From: Jeotgalibacillus aurantiacus
GTDB lineage: Bacteria; Bacillota; Bacilli; Bacillales; Jeotgalibacillaceae
Direction: 5' to 3'
Length of the DNA: 64,000 nt
Assembly (NCBI RefSeq): GCF_020595125.1
Contig: NZ_JACNMS010000002.1
Span: forward strand, 62,001-126,000
Below are positions 11,553 to 55,337 of this stretch, piece after piece. A program made the translations under genes and the position numbers. The notes below the pieces were generated by a model. The model saw nothing but the letters and a program-made list of their open reading frames with translations, made no database searches and was not told the DNA's origin. Each line of letters starts with the position of its first letter. The first letter of the stretch is position 1.

Positions 11553-13232
11553 TTAAAATTCCTCCTTTTCCGGAAAGCCTTCCGTTCCGGTGGCGACTGC
11601 CTGGTCAGATTGCAATATCTTCTGATGCGCCTTTTTCAAAACGGATTCCAGATGATCCAGTTTCAATTTCATTTCCTTTTCCGATCTGGAGTGAAGGATG
11701 GCATCGTTTAAATAGCGGTCAAGGTCCTTTTCTGTCGTTCCGCTCAGCAGATGATCGTGCTCACCGACAATCGTTTCGAAAAGCACCATCTTATCTTTTA
11801 GCAGCCTCCAGATTCTTTCCTCGATCGTATTTTTATTCAGCAAATAATAAATATTTACATCATTTGATTGACCAATTCTGTGAACCCTGCCTGTTCTCTG
11901 CTCGAGCTTCATCGGATTCCAGGGAAGGTCTGCGTGGATCAGGCAGTGACAGAATTGAAGATTCAGTCCTTCTGATCCCGCCTCGGTTGCAACCATGACT
12001 TCTGCCTGGTCCCTGAACAGATCGGTCATCCATTGCTTTTTCCCTTTTTTAAATCCTCCTCTGAAAAGCACCGAAGAGATTCCGTTTTGTTTCAAAAACC
12101 AGTGAAGGTAGAGCTGTGTTGCCCTGTATTGTGTAAAGATCAGCACTTTGTCCTGGTGCTTTTTGACAATCTCCAGTATTTTTTGTGCTTTGGCTGTAAT
12201 CAGTTCATCAGGCGTGATGTTTAAATTCACCTTAATCGATTTGCAAAAATCATCGTGCTTTTCTCCTCTGAGTGCTTTTAATAACGAAATGCTGGAGCTG
12301 CAGCCCTGTCGGAGCAGTGCCAGATGGCTGAACGAGTGAAGGTTTTCTTTTTGCATCCTCGTATATTCATTTTCAACAGCCTGATAAAGAGATTTTTCAT
12401 ATGGCAGCTGATCAATCCATAAAACGTTGATCTTCCGTTTTGTCCACTTGACGTCCGTTTCGTTGCGGCGGGAACGGATCATGAGCTGATCCATTTTTTC
12501 CTTCAACAATCCTTTATCGTCACAGGCAATCAGTTTTTTGAAGTCCTTTTTGCTTTCGAAAAGTGATGGATGCAACAGCTGTGACAAGTGGTACAAATCC
12601 TCTGTTTTATTTTGTACCGGCGTTGCTGTTAAAAAAATCCGGTAAGATGATTTCAAAGATGCGACAAACTGATGATTCAGCGTTTTTGGGTTGGATAATT
12701 TATGTGCTTCATCAACCAGAAGGAGATCAAACGCTTCCTTCTGAAACTCTGAACGGAATGGCTCCCTTTTGACAAGGTCAATGGAAGCGATGGTAATCGG
12801 TGACTGTCTCCATTCTTTTTTTCCTCTATGGATAATAGAAGGGAGAGTGAACCGCCAAAGCTCTTTTTGCCACTGCCCGGCCAGTGATGACGGAACGAGA
12901 ATGAGCACCTTTTTAACCATTTTTCTGCACAGCAGTTCTTTAATGATCAGTCCGGCTTCGATTGTTTTACCTAGTCCGACTTCATCTGCCAGAATGGCGC
13001 GGCTACCCATCTCAAATAATACCTTCTCAGCTGCATTGATCTGATGAGGCATAGGAGAAAAATCAATCAGGTCCTGCAGACAGCTCAGTGTACGTTCTTT
13101 TTTGATGGACGTGTATTTTAGTTCATAGGATATTTCAGTCAATGCAAGGCTTGATGGCTCACTAAAGCTGTTCAAATAACGAAAAAAACGTTCGCGCCAG
13201 TCCTTGTCCCCAATTGAAACGTTGATTTCCAT
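11553..13232 (-). CDS. yqhH: SNF2-family helicase YqhH
   Basis: 559-aa SF2 helicase-like ATPase of the SNF2/RapA type. Motif I ADEVGLGKTIEAG, motif II VDEAHKLS, motif III LTATPVQN, and C-terminal motifs V-VI GSEGLNLQ and QRTGRVHRIGQ are complete. Such proteins translocate on duplex DNA; RapA-like members recycle RNA polymerase, but the role of YqhH is not established. ATG 13232 is chosen because AAAGGAGAAAAAAT precedes it; the 18-codon upstream extension has no RBS. Confidence 0.9.
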   Translation of the reverse strand: MEINVSIGDKDWRERFFRYLNSFSEPSSLALTEISYELKYTSIKKERTLSCLQDLIDFSPMPHQINAAEKVLFEMGSRAILADEVGLGKTIEAGLIIKELLCRKMVKKVLILVPSSLAGQWQKELWRFTLPSIIHRGKKEWRQSPITIASIDLVKREPFRSEFQKEAFDLLLVDEAHKLSNPKTLNHQFVASLKSSYRIFLTATPVQNKTEDLYHLSQLLHPSLFESKKDFKKLIACDDKGLLKEKMDQLMIRSRRNETDVKWTKRKINVLWIDQLPYEKSLYQAVENEYTRMQKENLHSFSHLALLRQGCSSSISLLKALRGEKHDDFCKSIKVNLNITPDELITAKAQKILEIVKKHQDKVLIFTQYRATQLYLHWFLKQNGISSVLFRGGFKKGKKQWMTDLFRDQAEVMVATEAGSEGLNLQFCHCLIHADLPWNPMKLEQRTGRVHRIGQSNDVNIYYLLNKNTIEERIWRLLKDKMVLFETIVGEHDHLLSGTTEKDLDRYLNDAILHSRSEKEMKLKLDHLESVLKKAHQKILQSDQAVATGTEGFPEKEEF

Positions 13233-47322: not shown

Positions 47323-48042
47323 ATGTCTCAGATTATTGCTCATCGCGGGGATTCCGGACATTACCCGGAAAATACAATGAAGGCGTTTAAAAAAGCGATA
47401 GCTGCCGGGTGTGATGCGATTGAACTTGACGTTCAGCGGTCAAAGGATGGAGAGCTCGTGGTCATTCATGACGAAACGGTCAACAGGACAACAAATGGAA
47501 CAGGATATGTGAAAGACCTGACTTTAAAAGAATTAAGACAGTTGAAAATAAAAAAGAGCCGCTTTCTCAGACCGGAAAAGATTCCTTTACTTGACGAAGT
47601 GCTTCAGTGGCTGCAAAATGAAGCGATTATGTGCCATATTGAATTGAAAAACGATAAAGTACGCTATGAGGGAATGGAAAAAGAAATTTTGCAAAAAGTT
47701 GCAGAGTTTAAATTAGATAACAGAATTGTGTATTCCTCCTTCAACCTCGACAGTGTCACAACGTTGAAAAAGTTGGATTCCCCATCTGAAGTCGCCTTTA
47801 TTTACAATAAAAAAGGAGTCAATCCACTGTTGCTTCAGCAGACGGTCGGAGCAGATGCCATTCATGCCAATTACCGGGTGATGACTGAGCAGTTGATGCG
47901 CGATTGCCAGCGCCACGGTTTCCCTGTCAGGTTGTACACGTTGAATCAGGTGTCTCTTATTCAGAAGTGGATGGATGCAGGCCTTTCGGGTGTGATTACT
48001 GATTTTCCGGGCAGAGCTCTTCAGTTGAAGAAAGAGAAATGA
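47323..48042 (+). CDS. yqiK: Cytosolic glycerophosphodiester phosphodiesterase (YqiK-like)
   Basis: 239-aa GDPD TIM barrel: QIIAHRGDSGHYPENT, the metal-binding ELDVQRSKDGELVVIHDE and VNRTTNGTG are all present. It lacks a signal peptide, so it acts in the cytosol on glycerophosphodiesters released from phospholipids, giving glycerol-3-phosphate. ATG 47323 is six bases after AAGGGGG. Placement after spo0A matches yqiK; the symbol is by synteny. Confidence 0.88.
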   Translation: MSQIIAHRGDSGHYPENTMKAFKKAIAAGCDAIELDVQRSKDGELVVIHDETVNRTTNGTGYVKDLTLKELRQLKIKKSRFLRPEKIPLLDEVLQWLQNEAIMCHIELKNDKVRYEGMEKEILQKVAEFKLDNRIVYSSFNLDSVTTLKKLDSPSEVAFIYNKKGVNPLLLQQTVGADAIHANYRVMTEQLMRDCQRHGFPVRLYTLNQVSLIQKWMDAGLSGVITDFPGRALQLKKEK

Positions 48043-48088: not shown

Positions 48089-48199
48089 GTGCCGGGACAT
48101 TCCTTCGCTTCCGCGGCCGCGCGGTGAGCCGGCTGTGCTACGCACATCCGACTCGCCTGTCGCTTTACCGCCGAGGGAGTCTACGGAATGCCCCGGCAC
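48089..48199. repeat. 111-bp hairpin repeat element (minus orientation)
   Basis: Arms GTGCCGGGACATTCC (48089-48103) and GGAATGCCCCGGCAC (48185-48199), one mismatch. On the minus strand the core reads GTAGACTCC...AAAGCGACAGG...GGCTCACCGCGCGGCCG as in the 42600 copy. The apical stem is TGTGC/GCACA. The outer arm matches that of the 19285 copy, not of 42600. Confidence 0.85.
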
Positions 48200-48274
48200 T
48201 AATGCTCTTACAATTAGAAGGGCATCGTTTTATAAGTGCGAACGAGCAGTAAGCTATGTTGAAAATATTAAAAC

Positions 48275-48325: not shown

Positions 48326-48565
48326 TTATTTTTCTTTTTGAAATCGTTTTTGCACTTTGTTGTTTTTGCGATCCCGGTGCAGGAGGAATCCCCCGATAAA
48401 ACCGATTCCGATGATGAACATAATAAGACCTGCAACAAACTGCAGCCACAGGGCAGGCATCCATGAAGCCTGAATGCCAAAAAACATATCCCGCATCAGC
48501 TTAATGCCGTAAGCCGCGATAACGCCGGGGATTAACAGGACAATTAATGCTGCGATTCTTGCCAT
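48326..48565 (-). CDS. yqzF: DUF2627 membrane protein YqzF
   Basis: 79-aa protein with two membrane helices (residues 4-20 ALIVLLIPGVIAAYGIK and 38-62 ALWLQFVAGLIMFIIGIGFIGG) and a basic tail. ARIAALIVLLIPGVIAAYGIKLMRD-type starts define DUF2627. AAGGAGTAATCGT precedes the ATG. Divergent from bkdR, as in B. subtilis; function unknown. Confidence 0.85.
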   Translation of the reverse strand: MARIAALIVLLIPGVIAAYGIKLMRDMFFGIQASWMPALWLQFVAGLIMFIIGIGFIGGFLLHRDRKNNKVQKRFQKEK

Positions 48566-48619: not shown

Positions 48620-48648
48620 TTGTCAAGGAAAAGGCTTTCATGTACAAT
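48620..48648 (+). promoter_or_regulatory. Sigma-A promoter of the bkd operon
   Basis: TTGTCA, 17-bp spacer, TACAAT, about 50 bp before bkdR. No sigma-54 pattern (TGGCAC-N5-TTGC) is visible between yqzF and bkdR. Confidence 0.65.
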
Positions 48649-48697
48649 GAAGAAGGTTGCAAGAAGTTGCGTTATCGAACAGAAGGGATGAAATAAA

Positions 48698-50710
48698 TTG
48701 CAAAAAGTGCTGATCGTCGGAGCTGGTCAGGGAGGGGAAGCCCTGCTGCAGGTCATGGCAGAAAGTGATGCGTTTCAAGTGTATGCAGTTGTTGACCGGA
48801 ATAACCAGGCACCAGGGCTTGAACTGGCACGTGCAATGGATATACAGACCGGAAGTGACTGGCGTAATTATTTAACAGATCAAACAGATATTATTATAGA
48901 TGTAACAGGGGATCATCAGACTTTTCTTGATTTACGGGAAGCAAGGTCTCAAAACACAGTTCTGATTCCGGGCAGTGTAGCTTCGCTCCTTTATCAACTG
49001 TTGACTGAAAAAGAATCGCTGATCCGTCATCTGGAGCATGATTCCTACATAAGAGAACTTGTCATGAATTCAACCCATGATGGCATGATTGGGATTGATA
49101 AGGATCACAGGATAATTCTATTCAATGACCGGGCATCTGAAATGGTCGGGATTGAAAAGGAAAAGGCGATGCACCAGTCTATCTACCAGGTTGTTCCATT
49201 AAGCGGCCTGCCAAGAATCATTGAAACCGGCCGGACGGAAAATCATCAGGAGCTCGTCCTTGATAATGGAGCAAAGGTTGTCACAACCCGGATCCCGATG
49301 ATCAATGATCAGGGGGAGATTATAGGGGCTTTTGCGGTATTTAAAGATATCACAGAAGTAGTGGACCTTGCAGAGGAAATGACGAACCTGAAGGAAATAC
49401 AGATGATGCTTGAGGCGATCATCCAATCGAGTGATGATGCGATATCGGTGGTGGACGAGCACGGAAGAGGTCTGCTTATTAATCCAGCATACACCCGGCT
49501 CACTGGACTTTCTGAAAGTGAAGTCATTAATCAGCCTGCAACGACTGATATCTTTGAAGGCGAAAGTATGCACATGAAGGTATTGAAGACGAGGCGGCCG
49601 GTTCGCGGTGTCAAGATGATTGTCGGCCCGAATAAAAAAGAAGTAGCGGTAAACGTCGCCCCTATTATCGTAAATGGTCAGCTCAAAGGGAGTGTCGGGG
49701 TTATTCATGACATGTCTGAGATTCAGGAGCTGTCCTCTGAGCTTGACCGGGCGAGAAGGATCATCCGTTCACTCGAAGCAAAATACACGTTTGAGGATAT
49801 TATCGGCCGGTCCGATGAAATGATGCTGGTCACGGAACAGGCTAAGGTGGCAGCAAAAACGAATACGACCGTTTTAATCAGAGGGGAATCCGGCAGTGGG
49901 AAGGAGCTTTTCGCCCATGCCATTCACAACGCAAGCGACAGAAAGTATAAGTCGTTTGTCAGGGTGAATTGCGGATCTATGCCGGCTGCTTATCTGATGG
50001 AGGCGCTGTTTGGCAGGGAAACATCAGAAGGTTTTTTTGAACAGGCTGGAGAAGGAACGGTTTTCCTGGATGAGATCGGAGAACTGAGCCTTGAAGCGCA
50101 AAGGATGCTGCTTTCCGTGCTGGAGTCAAAAACCATCAGACGTCTTGGAACGACCGGTGAAGTGGCGCTAAAGGCGAGAGTCATCACCGCTTCTAATTTC
50201 AATCTTGAACGTGCCATCGGGGACGGGAGATTTCTGGAGGAATTGTATTATCACCTATCAAGGCTGACCCTTCAACTTCCACCGCTCCGGTCTCATAAGA
50301 TGGATATTCCTTCTATATCAGACAGGCTGATTCAGAAGCTGAACCAGTCTTACGGCCGGCATGTTAAAGGGATTTCAGCCCTGGCACTCAGACAGCTGTA
50401 TGAGCACAGCTGGCCGGGGAATATACGGGAACTTGAAAACGTTCTGAGCCGGGCCATGATATTTATGGATCAGAAGGATGACATGATAGAACCAAAACAT
50501 CTGATTCCTCTTCATCCTTCCGAGGAGCCTGAAGAGCTGAGCGGATCTCTTGCAGATCAGCTTGAACGAGTTGAAAAAGAGATTATCCGTTCCACATTAA
50601 AAAAACATAAAGGCAATAAAACTGCCGCTGCAAAAGATCTTGATATTTCAATACGGAATCTCTACTACAAGATAGAGAAATATCAGGTTGAGAGTGAAAG
50701 GAGCAGTTGA
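48698..50710 (+). CDS. bkdR: BkdR-type enhancer-binding-protein regulator lacking GAFTGA
   Basis: 670 aa. Residues 1-95 look like a Rossmann-type sensor (VLIVGAGQGGEALL); two PAS domains follow (about 115-225 and 240-340), then an AAA+ domain with Walker A GESGSGKEL and Walker B VFLDEIGE, and a Fis-type HTH (NKTAAAKDLDISIRNLYYKI). After LFG (437-439) the sequence goes RETSEGFFEQAGEGT: the GAFTGA loop that contacts sigma-54 is absent. TTG start after AGAAGGGATG. Probably controls the operon it heads, but not through sigma-54 (inference). Confidence 0.88.
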   Translation: MQKVLIVGAGQGGEALLQVMAESDAFQVYAVVDRNNQAPGLELARAMDIQTGSDWRNYLTDQTDIIIDVTGDHQTFLDLREARSQNTVLIPGSVASLLYQLLTEKESLIRHLEHDSYIRELVMNSTHDGMIGIDKDHRIILFNDRASEMVGIEKEKAMHQSIYQVVPLSGLPRIIETGRTENHQELVLDNGAKVVTTRIPMINDQGEIIGAFAVFKDITEVVDLAEEMTNLKEIQMMLEAIIQSSDDAISVVDEHGRGLLINPAYTRLTGLSESEVINQPATTDIFEGESMHMKVLKTRRPVRGVKMIVGPNKKEVAVNVAPIIVNGQLKGSVGVIHDMSEIQELSSELDRARRIIRSLEAKYTFEDIIGRSDEMMLVTEQAKVAAKTNTTVLIRGESGSGKELFAHAIHNASDRKYKSFVRVNCGSMPAAYLMEALFGRETSEGFFEQAGEGTVFLDEIGELSLEAQRMLLSVLESKTIRRLGTTGEVALKARVITASNFNLERAIGDGRFLEELYYHLSRLTLQLPPLRSHKMDIPSISDRLIQKLNQSYGRHVKGISALALRQLYEHSWPGNIRELENVLSRAMIFMDQKDDMIEPKHLIPLHPSEEPEELSGSLADQLERVEKEIIRSTLKKHKGNKTAAAKDLDISIRNLYYKIEKYQVESERSS

Positions 50711-50711
50711 T

Positions 50712-51617
50712 TTGATTACATTTAAAGAGATTTTAGCAAAAGCGGAAGCAGCTGCGGATGTGACCGTGGCTGTTGCTTCCGCTGAAGACCATGAAGTCTT
50801 AAAAGCGGTCGATATGGCCCTTTCAATGAATCTGGGGAGATTTATCCTGACTGGTGATGAGATGAAAATCAATGAATTGATTGCCGCTCATTTCCCTCAC
50901 CTTCTGGAGCATGCTGATATTGTCATCAGAAACGCGGATTCTCAGGCATCAGCCGCTTTATCGGCTGTAAAAGCTGTCAGCGACGGTGAGGCGTCAGTTT
51001 TAATGAAGGGTCACATTGATACCGCTTCGTTATTAAAAGCGGTACTGAATAAAGAAGTCGGGTTAAGAACAGGAAATGTTCTGTCCCATGTTGCTTTATT
51101 TGAAGTGCCTGCCATTGGCAGAAGTATTTTCGTGACGGATGCAGCGATGAATGTTGCGCCGGATCTTCAGCAGAAAAAGCAGATTTTAGAAAACGCCGTA
51201 AAGGTTGCGCATGGCATCGGGTTGTCGAATCCGGCTGTTGCGCCATTGGCAGCTGTTGAGGTTGTGAATCCGGCTATGCAGGCGACACTTGATGCTGCGG
51301 CACTGACGCAAATGAATCGCCGCGGACAGATCAAAGGCTGTCAGGTGGATGGTCCGCTGGCATTAGATAATGCTGTGTCGAAAGAGGCTGCCGGGCATAA
51401 AGGGATTGAGGGACCGGTTGCCGGACAAGCCGACATTCTGCTTGTTCCAAATATCGAGTCCGGAAACATTTTATATAAATCTCTGATGTATTTCGGGCAG
51501 AGTAAGGTCGGAGCAGTGATTGCCGGTGCAAAAGCGCCTGTTGTGCTGACTTCAAGAGCAGATACAGCAGACAGCAAGCTTCATTCACTCGCACTTGCGA
51601 TTTGTACAACACATTAA
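50712..51617 (+). CDS. ptb: Phosphate butyryltransferase
   Basis: 301-aa phosphotransacylase that converts (branched) butyryl-type CoA esters and phosphate to acyl phosphates. [37 protein letters not shown] and [14 protein letters not shown] are family blocks. TTG 50712 is eight bases after AAGGAG and one base after the bkdR stop, so no separate promoter fits between them. Works with Buk to recover ATP or set acyl-CoA levels. Confidence 0.94.
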
Positions 51618-51637
51618 TTGATCAGGGGGAAATGAAA

Positions 51638-52732
51638 ATGGAAATTTTTACTTATATGGAGAAATACGATTACGAGCAGCTGGTTTTCTGCCAGGATGAG
51701 AGCTCAGGATTAAAAGCCATTATTGCCATTCACGATACAACACTCGGACCAGCACTTGGCGGTACGAGAATGTGGACGTATAACTCTGAGGCAGATGCGA
51801 TTGAAGATGCACTTCGTCTTGCTAAAGGGATGACTTATAAAAATGCCGCAGCGGGCTTAAATCTTGGTGGAGGAAAAACGGTTATTATCGGTGATCCACT
51901 AAAGGACAAAAACGAAGAAATGTTCCGTGCTTTCGGCCGTTACATTCAAGGTCTTGCCGGCCGTTATATTACAGCAGAGGATGTAGGTACAACCGTAAAG
52001 GATATGGACCTCATTCATGAAGAAACAGATTATGTAACGGGGATCTCACCTGCGTTCGGTTCTTCAGGTAACCCTTCACCAGTAACTGCTTATGGCGTTT
52101 ACAGAGGAATTAAGGCGGCAGCAAATGAAGCATACGGCAGTGACTCTCTTGAAGGCAAGACGATTGCTGTTCAGGGTGTTGGTAACGTTGCGTTTACGCT
52201 TTGCCGTCACCTTCACGAAGAAGGCGCGAAGCTGATTGTGACTGATATTAATAAAGAAGCGGTGCAGCGTGCAGTTGATGAGTTTGGTGCAACAGCGGTT
52301 GAACCGAACGAGATTTATGGCGTTGACTGTGATATTTTTGCCCCATGTGCACTTGGTGCTGTCATCAATGATCAGACGCTTGAAGTGTTAAAGGCAGATG
52401 TCATTGCTGGTGCTGCAAATAACCAGCTGAAGGAAACAAAACACGGCGATATTCTTCACGAACGTGGAATCGTTTATGCGCCTGACTACGTGATCAATGC
52501 CGGCGGCGTGATCAACGTGGCCGATGAGCTTTACGGATATAACCGTGAGCGTGCGATGAAAAATGTAGAAAAAGTATATGATAATGTTGCGCGTGTATTT
52601 GAGATTGCCAAACGCGACAATGTACCAAGCTATCTTGCTGCTGACCGTATGGCGGAAGAGAGAATTGCGAAAATGGCGAAATCAAGAAGTCAGTTTCTCC
52701 GCAGCGAGCACAATATTTTAAGCAGAAGATAA
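51638..52732 (+). CDS. bcd: Leucine dehydrogenase
   Basis: 364 aa, exactly the B. subtilis Bcd length. NAD-dependent oxidative deamination of Leu/Val/Ile to keto acids that feed the Bkd complex. [11 protein letters not shown], catalytic K80 in [12 protein letters not shown], and NAD motif [12 protein letters not shown] 51638 is seven bases after AGGGGGA; ATG 51632 is an alternative. Confidence 0.97.
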
Positions 52733-52743
52733 GAATGAATAAA

Positions 52744-52775
52744 GCCGGTGCCCTTGATGATTCAATGGCACTGGT
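52744..52775 (+). other. Intergenic hairpin bcd-buk
   Basis: GCCGGTGCC (52744-52752) pairs with GGCACTGGT (52767-52775), two G-U pairs, 14-nt loop, no T-run. It may stabilise or mark an mRNA end within the operon. Confidence 0.4.
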
Positions 52776-52797
52776 CTGTATTACTGGAGGGAAAAAC

Positions 52798-53901
52798 GTG
52801 CAGGATCAAAACTACCGTATATTAGTAATCAACCCGGGTTCAACGTCAACGAAAATTGGTGTGTTTGACAGCGAAACAGCTATTCTTGAAAAAACGATTC
52901 GGCATGATTCAAGTGTGATAGACAGCTACAACAAAATCATCGATCAGTATCAGTTCAGAAAGCAGACGATTCTTGAAGCGCTTGATGAGGAAGGAATGAA
53001 TATTTCAAGACTCGATGCCGTGTGCGGACGCGGTGGTCTGTTGCGCCCGATCGAGGGTGGAACCTATTCAGTGAATGAAGCAATGCTTAAGGACTTACGC
53101 AAAGGCTATTCCGGTCAGCATGCTTCCAATCTTGGCGGCATTATCGCCTATGAGATTGCACAGGGCCTGAACATACCATCCTTTATCGTGGATCCGGTTG
53201 TGGTGGATGAACTTTCAGACATCGCCCGCGTTTCGGGGTTTTCTCTGATTGAACGAAAAAGTATTTTTCACGCGCTGAATCAAAAAGCTGTTGCCCGCCG
53301 TGTAGCCAGGGAGTTAGGGAAATCTTACGAAGACTCTAACTTTATTGTCACGCACATGGGCGGGGGAATTACGGTTGGCGTTCATGAAAATGGACGGGTT
53401 GTTGATGTGAATAACGGACTGCACGGGGATGGACCATTCAGTCCGGAGCGGGCAGGGACCGTTCCGGCTGGAGATTTAGTGGAACTTTGTTTTTCAGGGG
53501 ATTATTACCGTGAAGAGATCATGAAAATGCTCGTAGGCCAGGGGGGTTTCGTTGGCTATCTTGGCACGAATGATGCCGTAAAGGTTGAGCAGATGATCCA
53601 AAACGGTGATGAGAAAGCAAAAAAAGTATATGAAGCGATGGCTTATCAGGTGGCAAAGGAAATCGGTGCAGCGGCTGCAGCCATTAAAGGCAAAGCAGAT
53701 GCCATCATTTTAACAGGGGGTCTTGCTTACGGAAAAGATTTTGTTGAACTGATCCGTGAGCGCATTGACTGGATTGCCGATGTCATCGTGCAGCCGGGTG
53801 AAAATGAACTTCAGGCTCTTGCAGAAGGAGCGCTCCGCGTGCTTCGTGAAGAAGAGGCTGCGAAAGTATATCCATTAGGGAATGTTTCAGTAAAAAGCTG
53901 A
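52798..53901 (+). CDS. buk: Butyrate kinase
   Basis: 367-aa ASKHA kinase turning butyryl- or branched acyl-phosphate plus ADP into acid plus [17 protein letters not shown], the nucleotide loops [12 protein letters not shown] and [13 protein letters not shown], and [12 protein letters not shown] are present. GTG 52798 is seven bases after GGAGG; the frame open from 52735 runs through the intergenic hairpin and has no RBS. Confidence 0.95.
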
Positions 53902-53915
53902 CAGGAGGAATTTTC

Positions 53916-55337
53916 ATGGCAGAAGAATATGATCTCGTCATACTCGGCGGAGGGACTGGCGGATACGTTGCGGCGATCCGTGCCTCACAGCTTGGGTTGA
54001 AAACGGCAATCGTTGAAAAAGGAAAGCTCGGTGGAACATGCCTTCACAGAGGGTGTATCCCGAGTAAAGCACTGTTAAGAAGTGCAGAGGTGTTTGCTAC
54101 AGCAAAAAATGCTGCCGATTTTGGCGTTGATATTAAAGAGGCGGTATTAAATTTCACTAAAGTGCAGGAGCGTAAACAGGCGATTGTGGATCAGCTTCAT
54201 AAAGGTGTTCAGCACCTGATGAAACAGGGTAAAATCGATGTTTTTGACGGCTTTGGACGAATTCTTGGACCATCCATTTTTTCCCCTATGCCGGGTACGA
54301 TTTCAGTGGAAATGACGGACGGAACTGAAAATGAAATGCTAATTCCGAAAAATGTCATAGTCGCAACGGGTTCAAGACCGCGCTCACTGCCTGGCCTAGA
54401 CATTGACGGCACGCATATTCTGAGCTCGGATGAAACGCTTGAGCTTGAAGAGTTGCCAGCATCTATGATCATTGTCGGCGGAGGCGTAATCGGGATCGAA
54501 TGGGCATCCATGATGGCCGATTTCGGCGTTGACGTAACCGTTCTTGAGTATGCAGACCGTATTATCCCGACAGAGGATACGGATGTATCAAAAGAAATGG
54601 AGAAGCTGCTGAAGAAAAAAGGAATCACCATTGTGACAGGTGCAAAAGTCGATGCAGCAAGTGCCGAAAAGGGAGACGGTGTATCCATTTCAGCTGAAGT
54701 AAAAGGTGAAACGGTTACATATTCCGCTGAAAAAATTCTTGTGTCCGTTGGCCGAAGTGCCAATACGGAAGGAATCGGTCTTGAAAACACAGACATCCAG
54801 GTGGAAAACGGATTTATTAAGGTGAACAACAAGCTTCAGACGAAGGAATCCCACATTTACGCAATTGGTGATGTGATTGGCGGGCTTCAGCTTGCACACG
54901 TTGCTTCACATGAAGGTATTCACGCTGTTGAGCATATTGCAGGACTGGACGTATCACCTATCGACTACAGCCTTGTGTCGAAGTGTATTTATTCAAGCCC
55001 TGAAGCAGCAAGTGTCGGTCTGACTGAACAGCAGGCGAAGGACGAGGGATACGACGTGAAGATCGGAAAATTCCCGTTTAAAGCAATCGGAAAAGCGCTT
55101 GTTTTCGGGAAATCTGACGGCTTTGTAAAGATCATTGCTGACAAAGCGTCAAACGACATTTTAGGCGTTCATATGATCGGTCCTCACGTCACAGATATGA
55201 TCTCTGAAGCAGGGCTTGCGCGTGTGCTTGATGCCACTCCTTGGGAAGTCGGCCAGACGATCCATCCGCATCCGACGTTAAGTGAAGCGATCGGGGAAGC
55301 GGCCCTTGCAGTTGATGGAAAGGCTATTCATTCATAA
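53916..55337 (+). CDS. lpdV: Dihydrolipoamide dehydrogenase (E3) of the Bkd complex
   Basis: 473-aa flavoprotein that reoxidises dihydrolipoyl-E2 with NAD. FAD motif LGGGTGGYVAA, redox pair C42/C47 in GGTCLHRGCIPSK, NAD motif VGGGVIGIEWAS, and the C-terminal His-Glu HPHPTLSEAIGEA. RBS ACAGGAGG. Position inside bkd marks it as the branched-chain-specific E3. Confidence 0.96.
   Translation: MAEEYDLVILGGGTGGYVAAIRASQLGLKTAIVEKGKLGGTCLHRGCIPSKALLRSAEVFATAKNAADFGVDIKEAVLNFTKVQERKQAIVDQLHKGVQHLMKQGKIDVFDGFGRILGPSIFSPMPGTISVEMTDGTENEMLIPKNVIVATGSRPRSLPGLDIDGTHILSSDETLELEELPASMIIVGGGVIGIEWASMMADFGVDVTVLEYADRIIPTEDTDVSKEMEKLLKKKGITIVTGAKVDAASAEKGDGVSISAEVKGETVTYSAEKILVSVGRSANTEGIGLENTDIQVENGFIKVNNKLQTKESHIYAIGDVIGGLQLAHVASHEGIHAVEHIAGLDVSPIDYSLVSKCIYSSPEAASVGLTEQQAKDEGYDVKIGKFPFKAIGKALVFGKSDGFVKIIADKASNDILGVHMIGPHVTDMISEAGLARVLDATPWEVGQTIHPHPTLSEAIGEAALAVDGKAIHS

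Follow-up and report, generated by a model that had tools for sequence, protein, structure and literature searches.

Introduction

The closest described counterparts of the locus treated here are the bkd systems of Bacillus subtilis and Bacillus thuringiensis and their regulator BkdR. In B. subtilis BkdR, serine replaces the threonine at the fourth position of GAFTGA, the sigma-54 contact loop of bacterial enhancer-binding proteins (bEBPs) (PMC3162934), and the B. thuringiensis bkd promoter, TTGGCACGGTATTTGCT, runs in the same direction as bkdR and depends on both BkdR and sigma-54 (PMC4428206). We analyzed the corresponding locus in a 64,000-nucleotide stretch of Jeotgalibacillus aurantiacus DNA (the window; contig NZ_JACNMS010000002.1, positions 62,001 to 126,000). 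The canonical relatives that we surveyed share the GAFSGA of B. subtilis BkdR. In contrast to both Bacillus systems, the window BkdR lacks the loop and the arginine fingers, its gene lies one base from ptb, neither a −24/−12 promoter nor a palindrome matching at least 9 of the 10 positions of TGCAA-N4-TTGCA follows it, and the genome lacks rpoN, the sigma-54 gene. We propose that BkdR is a former sigma-54 activator that now probably regulates a single sigma-A operon, bkdR-ptb-bcd-buk-lpdV and onward, most likely as its repressor.

Several bEBPs without GAFTGA have been described. The loop is substituted or deleted in TyrR, DhaR, HupR, VpsR and YplP (PMC3162934), which are described there singly, whereas the loss in BkdR is repeated among orthologues, is accompanied by loss of the promoter and of the upstream activating sequences, and coincides with the absence of sigma-54 in 22 genomes. 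The NtrC proteins of Caulobacter and Rhodobacter capsulatus have a deletion over the loop and act at sigma-70 promoters; unlike BkdR they are REC-domain response regulators of Alphaproteobacteria, and Caulobacter retains bEBPs with GAFTGA (PMC10274813). Orphan enhancer-binding proteins of Fusobacterium nucleatum and Jannaschia resemble the window BkdR in combining a changed loop with a genome lacking sigma-54, but differ in that the change is a substitution of Thr/Ser by Glu, found in one case each (PMC3162934). One BkdR of our survey has the same substitution (GAFEGA in G099, where G-numbers denote genomes, L-numbers loci and f-numbers families), but in a genome that has rpoN. SoxR of B. thuringiensis, also a bEBP, is reported to be negatively autoregulated at a promoter without a −12/−24 sequence and is a precedent for the autorepression that we propose in loop-bearing BkdR; it differs in that it still has targets under sigma-54 and that the soxR promoter itself was less active in a sigL mutant (PMC4941409).

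GAFTGA-less bEBPs are therefore already known, and our search suggests that the loop-less BkdR and its repeated route are new as far as could be found: titles and abstract openings in the open-licence literature contained, among the matches listed, no report of a loop-less BkdR or of a repeated conversion. To our knowledge, how sigma-54 can be lost while its target genes stay under control has mostly been treated case by case. In related Bacillales, a single regulator and its operon, orthologous throughout, are found in states that range from intact through intermediate to fully converted. The sigma factor, the promoter, the enhancer, the loop and the ATPase fingers can all be scored, so that the order of events and a switch from activator to repressor are directly testable. 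Comparison with relatives shows that rewiring of this regulator away from sigma-54 took place more than once. The annotation 'sigma-54-dependent regulator' can mislead on mechanism in rpoN-less Bacillales.

Results

Loop and arginine fingers of BkdR

BkdR was recognized by full-length similarity and by its position directly before ptb-bcd-buk-lpdV (Table 1). The name rests on operon and homology, because among the 25 NCBIfam families listed only a PAS domain model scored above cut-off, with no BkdR or RocR match. Identity to the window protein is 74–99% within the genus and 48–60% for nearly all other aligned loci; the aligned span outside the genus mostly runs from residue 1 to about 665, and the BkdRs of G024 and G230 are only 36–37% identical. 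The BkdRs at loci L086 and L087 (family f14), 36–37% identical to the window protein and the most divergent among the 99 aligned, have Glu replaced by Gly in Walker A and by Asp in Walker B.

Pfam profiles found two PAS domains, the sigma-54-activator AAA+ domain (PF00158, 158.7 bits, residues 368–525), an AAA+ lid and the helix-turn-helix HTH_8 (51.5 bits), while an N-terminal Rossmann-type match was barely above cut-off. An earlier note on this DNA, made from the sequence alone, had described an AAA+ domain with Walker A, Walker B and a Fis-type helix-turn-helix but no GAFTGA before the FExAxGGT segment, and we found the same: GESGSGKE, LDEIGEL and HTH_8 are in place, and where canonical Bacillales relatives typically show GAFSGA the window protein reads LFGRETSEGFFEQAGEGT. 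The nearest sequences with solved structures belong to activators of the NtrC family or related to it, and their loop lies opposite the gap (two alignments, for example with chain 4l4u). An AlphaFold2 model (mean predicted local distance difference test score 79.7, predicted template modelling score 0.41), of which we made no further use, has only a short stretch at the place of the loop, between helices 430–438 and 446–450.

The motif is missing from BkdR in all 12 genomes of the genus, and the protein is full length in all 12. The earlier note had called the loop deleted, not mutated, which is true of the window species and of six congeners. The other five (G002, G005, G007, G008 and G010) have unrelated residues in a segment that keeps its full length or is shorter by three residues, so that erosion probably preceded deletion. 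That a sequencing or assembly error has hidden a GAFTGA here has next to no probability: the frame is intact, Jeotgalibacillus sp. R-1-5s-1, whose BkdR is 99% identical, has the same residues at this place, and the absence of the loop throughout the genus excludes it.

A further loss lies beyond what the earlier note had seen. The two positions that we take, from PspF-type proteins, to be the arginine fingers are L513 and H519 in the window BkdR. Both are arginine in 70/70 loop-bearing BkdRs (GAF[ST]G in translation), and arginine is retained in 12/29 and 13/29 loop-less ones, respectively; the Walker A lysine is present in 70/70 and 29/29. Compared with a functional bEBP, the window protein has the PF00158 AAA+ domain with Walker A and B, and it is without the GAFTGA loop, the arginine fingers, a sigma-54 in the genome and a −24/−12 target. 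Its architecture, bEBP domains with the loop lost, is that of the GAFTGA-less bEBPs.

Absence of sigma-54

The window genome is rated 100% complete (19 contigs). We searched it for sigL/rpoN, as the earlier note had proposed, with the family profile PF04552, which gave no match (4/14 control genomes were positive, B. subtilis included). Among the 12 members of the genus, which include Jeotgalibacillus sp. R-1-5s-1, proteolyticus, S-D1, alimentarius, salarius, terrae, ET6, soli P9 and campisalis, only J. soli has a match above cut-off, and its RpoN used as a query found no match at E ≤ 0.01 in the 11 other members, the window genome included. A weak PF04552 match below cut-off in J. proteolyticus (G005) was rejected as an rpoN remnant, the frame reading by eye as a GntR-type regulator.

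The earlier note had seen no TGGCAC-N5-TTGC pattern in front of bkdR, and TGGYRY-N5-TTGCW has 0 matches in the whole 64-kb window. The sole PF00158 match at E ≤ 1e-14 in the window genome is the loop-less BkdR, and none of the 29 matches at that threshold from 22 rpoN-less genomes has the loop. The control of BkdR and its operon is thus close to certainly independent of sigma-54, as the note had supposed.

Loop, promoter and sigma-54 across the Bacillales

We surveyed 299 genomes from the order, 258 of them with RpoN above cut-off. BkdR was sought in 31 rpoN-less genomes outside the genus, in 44 rpoN-bearing ones (one per family) and then in 39 more rpoN-bearing ones from selected families, which yielded 99 aligned loci (12 from the genus, 50 first-round and 37 second-round). 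Lower-scoring paralogues and G018, G027 and G032 were left out of the 62-genome set that preceded the second round; G018 was rejected as BkdR, being a paralogue before an acyl-CoA-dehydrogenase-like gene.

Among the 31 rpoN-less genomes outside the genus, 18 had no match at E ≤ 1e-70 and 13 had a BkdR. The loop is lost in all 11 of these 13 that are at least 97% complete (G114 with 6% contamination), while the remaining two, G165 (80% complete) and G215 (62%), keep the loop and a −24/−12 site, so that their rpoN is probably unassembled. Together with 11 genus members, complete rpoN-less genomes with a BkdR have lost the loop in 22/22 cases. Over the 99 loci, 68 have loop and rpoN, 22 have neither, seven have rpoN without the loop and two have the loop with rpoN undecided.

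These two incomplete genomes show that a missed rpoN does occur, since both combine loop and promoter with no rpoN match, and the window BkdR could accordingly be imagined to work with sigma-54 still, through a diverged loop or with an rpoN that the assembly missed. However, the window genome is complete, 11/12 congeners lack rpoN both by profile and by the J. soli RpoN query, and the −24/−12 promoter and the arginine fingers are gone too, which makes this explanation extremely unlikely.

A strict −24/−12 promoter (TGGYRY-N5-TTGCW within 300 nt after bkdR) is present in 69/70 loop-bearing versus 0/29 loop-degenerate loci, the two states agreeing in 98/99 (37/37 versus 0/25 in the first 62 loci, where 0.22 of 62 are expected by chance). 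With G027 and G032, initially dropped and both carrying loop and promoter, the 101 loci comprise 71 with loop and promoter, 29 with neither and one with the loop and no strict promoter. Nor does any of the 29 degenerate loci, all of them checked, have a strict −24/−12 site within 350 nt upstream of bkdR. Ten further named relatives have the loop in 10/10 and the strict promoter in 8/10. The sole exception among the 99, G203, has the loop and a palindrome after bkdR, together with a TTGGCAC box that lacks a −12 element in the right position; conversion may be just beginning there. The gap between bkdR and ptb is 96–378 nt in loop-bearing loci and holds the upstream activating sequences and the −24/−12 promoter (its length could be scripted in 50/70 loop-bearing and 18/29 loop-less loci); in the window it is the single base that the earlier note had counted.

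Seven rpoN-bearing genomes (G007, G041, G043, G062, G099, G227 and G249) have a loop-degenerate BkdR and no strict −24/−12 promoter, and other bEBPs retain the loop in the three of them that were inspected (G007, G041 and G043). Therefore, loss of rpoN need not come first. The earlier note had suggested loss of sigL as a possible cause and had proposed to check whether loss of the loop tracks it. The genome does lack rpoN and the 22 complete rpoN-less genomes do follow the pattern, but the seven rpoN-bearing ones are loop-less already, with the promoter gone, and the comparison thus does not favor loss of sigL as the cause.

A palindrome at the sigma-A promoter

The sigma-A promoter that the earlier note had read before bkdR, TTGTCA-17-TACAAT, is where it was placed (Table 1), and its hexamers and spacer are identical in all 12 genus members when the upstream regions are aligned. 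Just downstream lies a probable BkdR operator, TGCAAGAAGTTGCG, at about +4 to +17, and a copy with 9/10 palindrome positions stands at the same place in all 12 congeners. A possible second site, TGAAATAAATTGCA, has a copy of at least 9/10 in 11/12 genus members; it is weak because it overlaps the coding sequence. Between −250 and +45, sites of at least 9/10 occur in the 12 members only at or downstream of the −10 element. The genus thus has the operator layout of a repressor: the sigma-A promoter is a good one, its palindrome, at about +2 to +17, overlaps the start or lies just downstream of it, and there is none upstream.

In loop-bearing loci, TGCAA-N4-TTGCA palindromes stand right after the bkdR stop, often two of them about 18–19 bp apart and mostly 45–75 nt before the −24 box. 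A palindrome of at least 9/10 is found just after bkdR in 32/35 loop-bearing versus 1/25 loop-less loci, and within 90 nt upstream of bkdR in 21/25 loop-less (0.34 expected) and 23/35 loop-bearing loci (0.25 expected); across these counts the shuffle test, run without G050 and G056 (where the match begins inside the gene), gives chance expectations of 0.08 to 1.61 loci. The distance from the −10 element to the upstream palindrome is 7–9 nt in 24/25 loop-less loci and exactly 7 nt in 28/53 loop-bearing ones (about +2 to +15), counted over loci with a site of at least 9 and a promoter call, the call being the best-scoring hexamer pair with no score threshold. G050, G056 and G089, where the match begins inside the gene, are left out of this and the following scan. 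By position, then, an operator at the bkdR promoter is not confined to the converted species.

A first pattern for catabolite-responsive elements (cre) was too strict, with one site found. With a looser one, 40/67 loop-bearing and 2/29 loop-less loci had a match after bkdR; the bkdR promoter region had one in 3/67 and 5/29, respectively, the latter five all from f2. These five loop-less loci (L071, L074, L076, L078 and L080) have a cre-like AAGCGCTTTCA-type site there, as if CcpA control had moved along with the promoter.

Such sites would also fit an AAA+ domain that is merely decaying in a BkdR that no longer regulates the operon, with CcpA, CodY or constitutive expression in its place, and mean identity of the AAA domain to the loop-bearing consensus does fall from 0.79 in loop-bearing to 0.61 in loop-less BkdRs. 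By the same measure, however, the helix-turn-helix (0.756 to 0.739) and the second PAS domain (0.843 to 0.814) are almost as conserved as in loop-bearing BkdR (means without the 5′-truncated G050, G056 and G089 and the divergent G024 and G230), the copy of the operator is conserved too, and the protein is full length throughout the genus. The ratio of nonsynonymous to synonymous substitution rates between the window bkdR and its nearest congener is 0.017 for the sensors, 0.009 for the AAA domain and 0 for the helix-turn-helix, and the AAA value is 0.009–0.118 in 6/7 loop-less pairs, those with unsaturated synonymous change. Judged by these rates, bkdR is under purifying selection and the gene is in use, and we consider it improbable that BkdR has simply dropped out of the control of its operon.

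Discussion

A proposed switch from activator to repressor

We propose the following mechanism. The older layout, which most of the Bacillales sampled still show, places bkdR under a sigma-A promoter of its own, where a palindrome is common at about +2 to +15, and gives ptb a separate −24/−12 promoter fed by BkdR palindromes just past the bkdR stop. In such loop-bearing species the palindrome at the sigma-A promoter would autorepress bkdR. Converted lineages have lost the ptb promoter and its sites and have bkdR and ptb close together, and the operon would be read from the bkdR promoter, with the former autorepression operator controlling all of it; with the operon placed under this operator, the activator would have become a repressor. 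The converted BkdR would need only DNA binding, a ligand response and perhaps ATP binding and oligomerization. PAS, helix-turn-helix and Walker A were kept, while the loop for sigma-54 decayed, as did the arginine fingers in many lineages. We infer that BkdR binds the palindrome, that its binding at the promoter represses, that a ligand lifts this repression and that the operon would have no other promoter.

The earlier note had likened BkdR to TyrR, an analogy that is right in kind, although the position of the operator suggests repression over sigma-70 activation. BkdR could instead have become an activator at sigma-A promoters, like TyrR or the NtrC of R. capsulatus; bound to DNA, it would then recruit ordinary RNA polymerase, either to the bkd operon or to targets elsewhere at a distance. 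The GAFTGA-less TyrR, DhaR and HupR are described as sigma-70 dependent (PMC3162934), Caulobacter NtrC both activates and represses (PMC10274813), the Walker A lysine is kept in every loop-less BkdR, and some loop-less loci have additional sites farther upstream. Against such activation stand the sites of all 12 genus members, at or downstream of the −10 element, and the good promoter hexamers, which should need little help from an activator. We regard activation as unlikely, though less so than a BkdR without any part in regulating its operon.

Repression by BkdR, the reading that we prefer, has several observations against it. The additional sites, of 9/10, lie near −244 in G095, G288 and G175, at −212 in G043 and at −151 in G062, and they could serve activation. 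In three loop-less f31 genomes and in G043, the best copy near bkdR is one of 8/10. Outside the order, a 9/10 upstream copy is present in just two Salipaludibacillus among the seven named relatives with a match that extends to the gene start, so that the age of autorepression is not traceable beyond part of the group. A whole-genome scan for TGCAA-N4-TTGCR gave 7 forward and 6 reverse matches versus 3 and 5 for the reversed control, and being this close to the control it identified no regulon; the palindrome is taken for the BkdR site from its position and conservation. Two of the named relatives, both Melghirimyces, bear the loop without a strict promoter. Because the rows are related, raw Fisher P-values overstate the evidence, and the independent pairs on well-supported branches number four, too few for significance in a sign test. 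Finally, GAFEGA is among the changes found in validated activators (PhhR, PMC3162934), and the loop of G099 may therefore not be dead.

Number and order of the losses

An RpoB tree of 60 genomes (without G044 and G215, whose rpoB is broken or partial in the assembly) has 6 changes of loop label, at least 3 of them forced by starred (well-supported) branches; a BkdR tree of the 99 loci with the AAA domain excluded has 9, at least 4 of them forced. The RpoB and RpoN trees used stop-to-stop open frames with start codons untrimmed, and the change counts do not separate gain from loss. Families f2, f7, f14 and f37 contain both loop states, and degenerate loop segments vary in length and sequence between lineages, which favors separate losses. 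Comparison of the loci establishes that loop, arginine fingers, promoter, upstream activating sequences and rpoN were lost, in parallel, while a palindrome was kept at the sigma-A promoter.

Intermediate states are found among living species. Two rpoN-bearing ones have a full-length loop altered at a key residue (GAFVGA, and GAFEGA in G099) with the promoter and the sites after bkdR already gone; in G193 the promoter is lost and the loop substituted, and one perfect palindrome and a cre-like site remain after bkdR. This suggests an order with the promoter first, the loop next and rpoN last. The RpoN of G041 lies, on a long branch, inside the starred clade expected for its kin and so looks native; that of G043 has no supported place in the RpoN tree.

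J. soli P9 (G007) has the only rpoN of the genus (locus L193, 744–2087) and three loop-bearing bEBPs, whereas its BkdR and RocR lack the loop, as elsewhere in the genus. Its RpoN is nearest, at 49%, to that of G039, from a distant family; this grouping has support of 67/82 with 23 rows and 95/92 after removal of five long or odd rows, and a place of the J. soli RpoN among its RpoB kin is rejected (P = 0.016 and 0.004 for the two row sets; the group was named after the tree was seen). The simplest reading is that J. soli re-acquired a foreign rpoN.

Loss of the loop extends to other bEBPs of the genus. In the 11 rpoN-less congeners, a RocR-like gene has lost the loop, both arginine fingers and the glutamate of Walker B, and the J. 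soli copy is in the same state. In the window genome it lies at 12287–13639 of contig C7 (locus L196, 4288–5637), divergent from rocA-rocD-glutamate dehydrogenase; we take it to be RocR from this neighborhood. The region upstream of rocA has no strict −24/−12 promoter there, and two TGCAA...TTGCA palindromes flank a TATTAT-like element. Five Jeotgalibacillus genomes (loci L022, L023, L024, L036 and L137) have yet another loop-less bEBP, from a third family with a length of about 450 aa.

More tentatively than repression itself, and with slightly more doubt than confidence, we suggest that there may be a repeatable, one-way route from sigma-54 activator to repressor of the own operon. It would begin with the −24/−12 promoter (G203), continue with the enhancer sites and the gap, then with substitution (GAFVGA, GAFEGA) and deletion of the loop and with the arginine fingers, and end with rpoN; what would have made the route possible is an older operator for autorepression at the sigma-A promoter of the regulator. 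As RocR of the same genus decayed in parallel, sigma-54 would have been lost at the end of a gene-by-gene release and would not have caused it, and J. soli would have regained a foreign rpoN while its old regulators stayed released.

Locus features

The features of the locus are collected in Table 1. The gene ptb is named from operon order, and the DUF2627-like gene is of the yqzF type.

Table 1. Coordinates of the bkdR locus, numbered by window position
Feature	Position	Strand	Remarks
Small DUF2627-like gene	48326..48565	−	Divergent from bkdR, borders its promoter region; conserved across the 12 upstream regions aligned
Sigma-A promoter of bkdR	48620..48648	+	TTGTCA 48620–48625, 17-bp spacer, TACAAT 48643–48648
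Probable BkdR operator TGCAAGAAGTTGCG	48658..48671		9/10 positions of TGCAA-N4-TTGCA; about +4 to +17
Possible second site TGAAATAAATTGCA	48689..48702		9/10; covers ribosome-binding site and start codon; weak
bkdR	48698..50710	+	TTG start, 670 aa; open reading frame (ORF) list and domain search; N-terminal Rossmann-like, two PAS, sigma-54-activator AAA+ without loop 1, Fis-type helix-turn-helix
Walker A GESGSGKE	49883..49906	+	Residues 396–403
Loop-gap segment LFGRETSEGFFEQAGEGT	50006..50059	+	Codons 437–454; GAF[S/T]GA loop absent here
Walker B LDEIGEL	50066..50086	+	Residues 457–463
Degenerate arginine-finger segment FLEELYYHL	50231..50257	+	FREDLYYRL in most canonical BkdRs
Fis-type helix-turn-helix	50603..50683	+	Residues 636–662, conserved
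bkdR–ptb junction	50708..50714	+	bkdR stop 50708–50710, single base, ptb TTG start 50712
ptb (phosphate butyryltransferase)	50712..51617	+	First catabolic gene of the operon; ORF
bcd (leucine dehydrogenase)	51632..52732	+	ORF
buk (butyrate kinase)	52735..53901	+	ORF; start approximate
lpdV (dihydrolipoamide dehydrogenase)	53916..55337	+	ORF

About 1 kb upstream of bkdR, a perfect TGCAAAAAGTTGCA palindrome (window 47690–47703) lies inside a glycerophosphodiester-phosphodiesterase-like gene and may be due to chance. Between this palindrome and bkdR lies a long and imperfect inverted repeat that may be a mobile repeat element, a GC-rich stretch at about 48090–48200 in which GTGCCGGGACATTCC stands near one end and GGAATGCCCCGGCAC at the opposite end.

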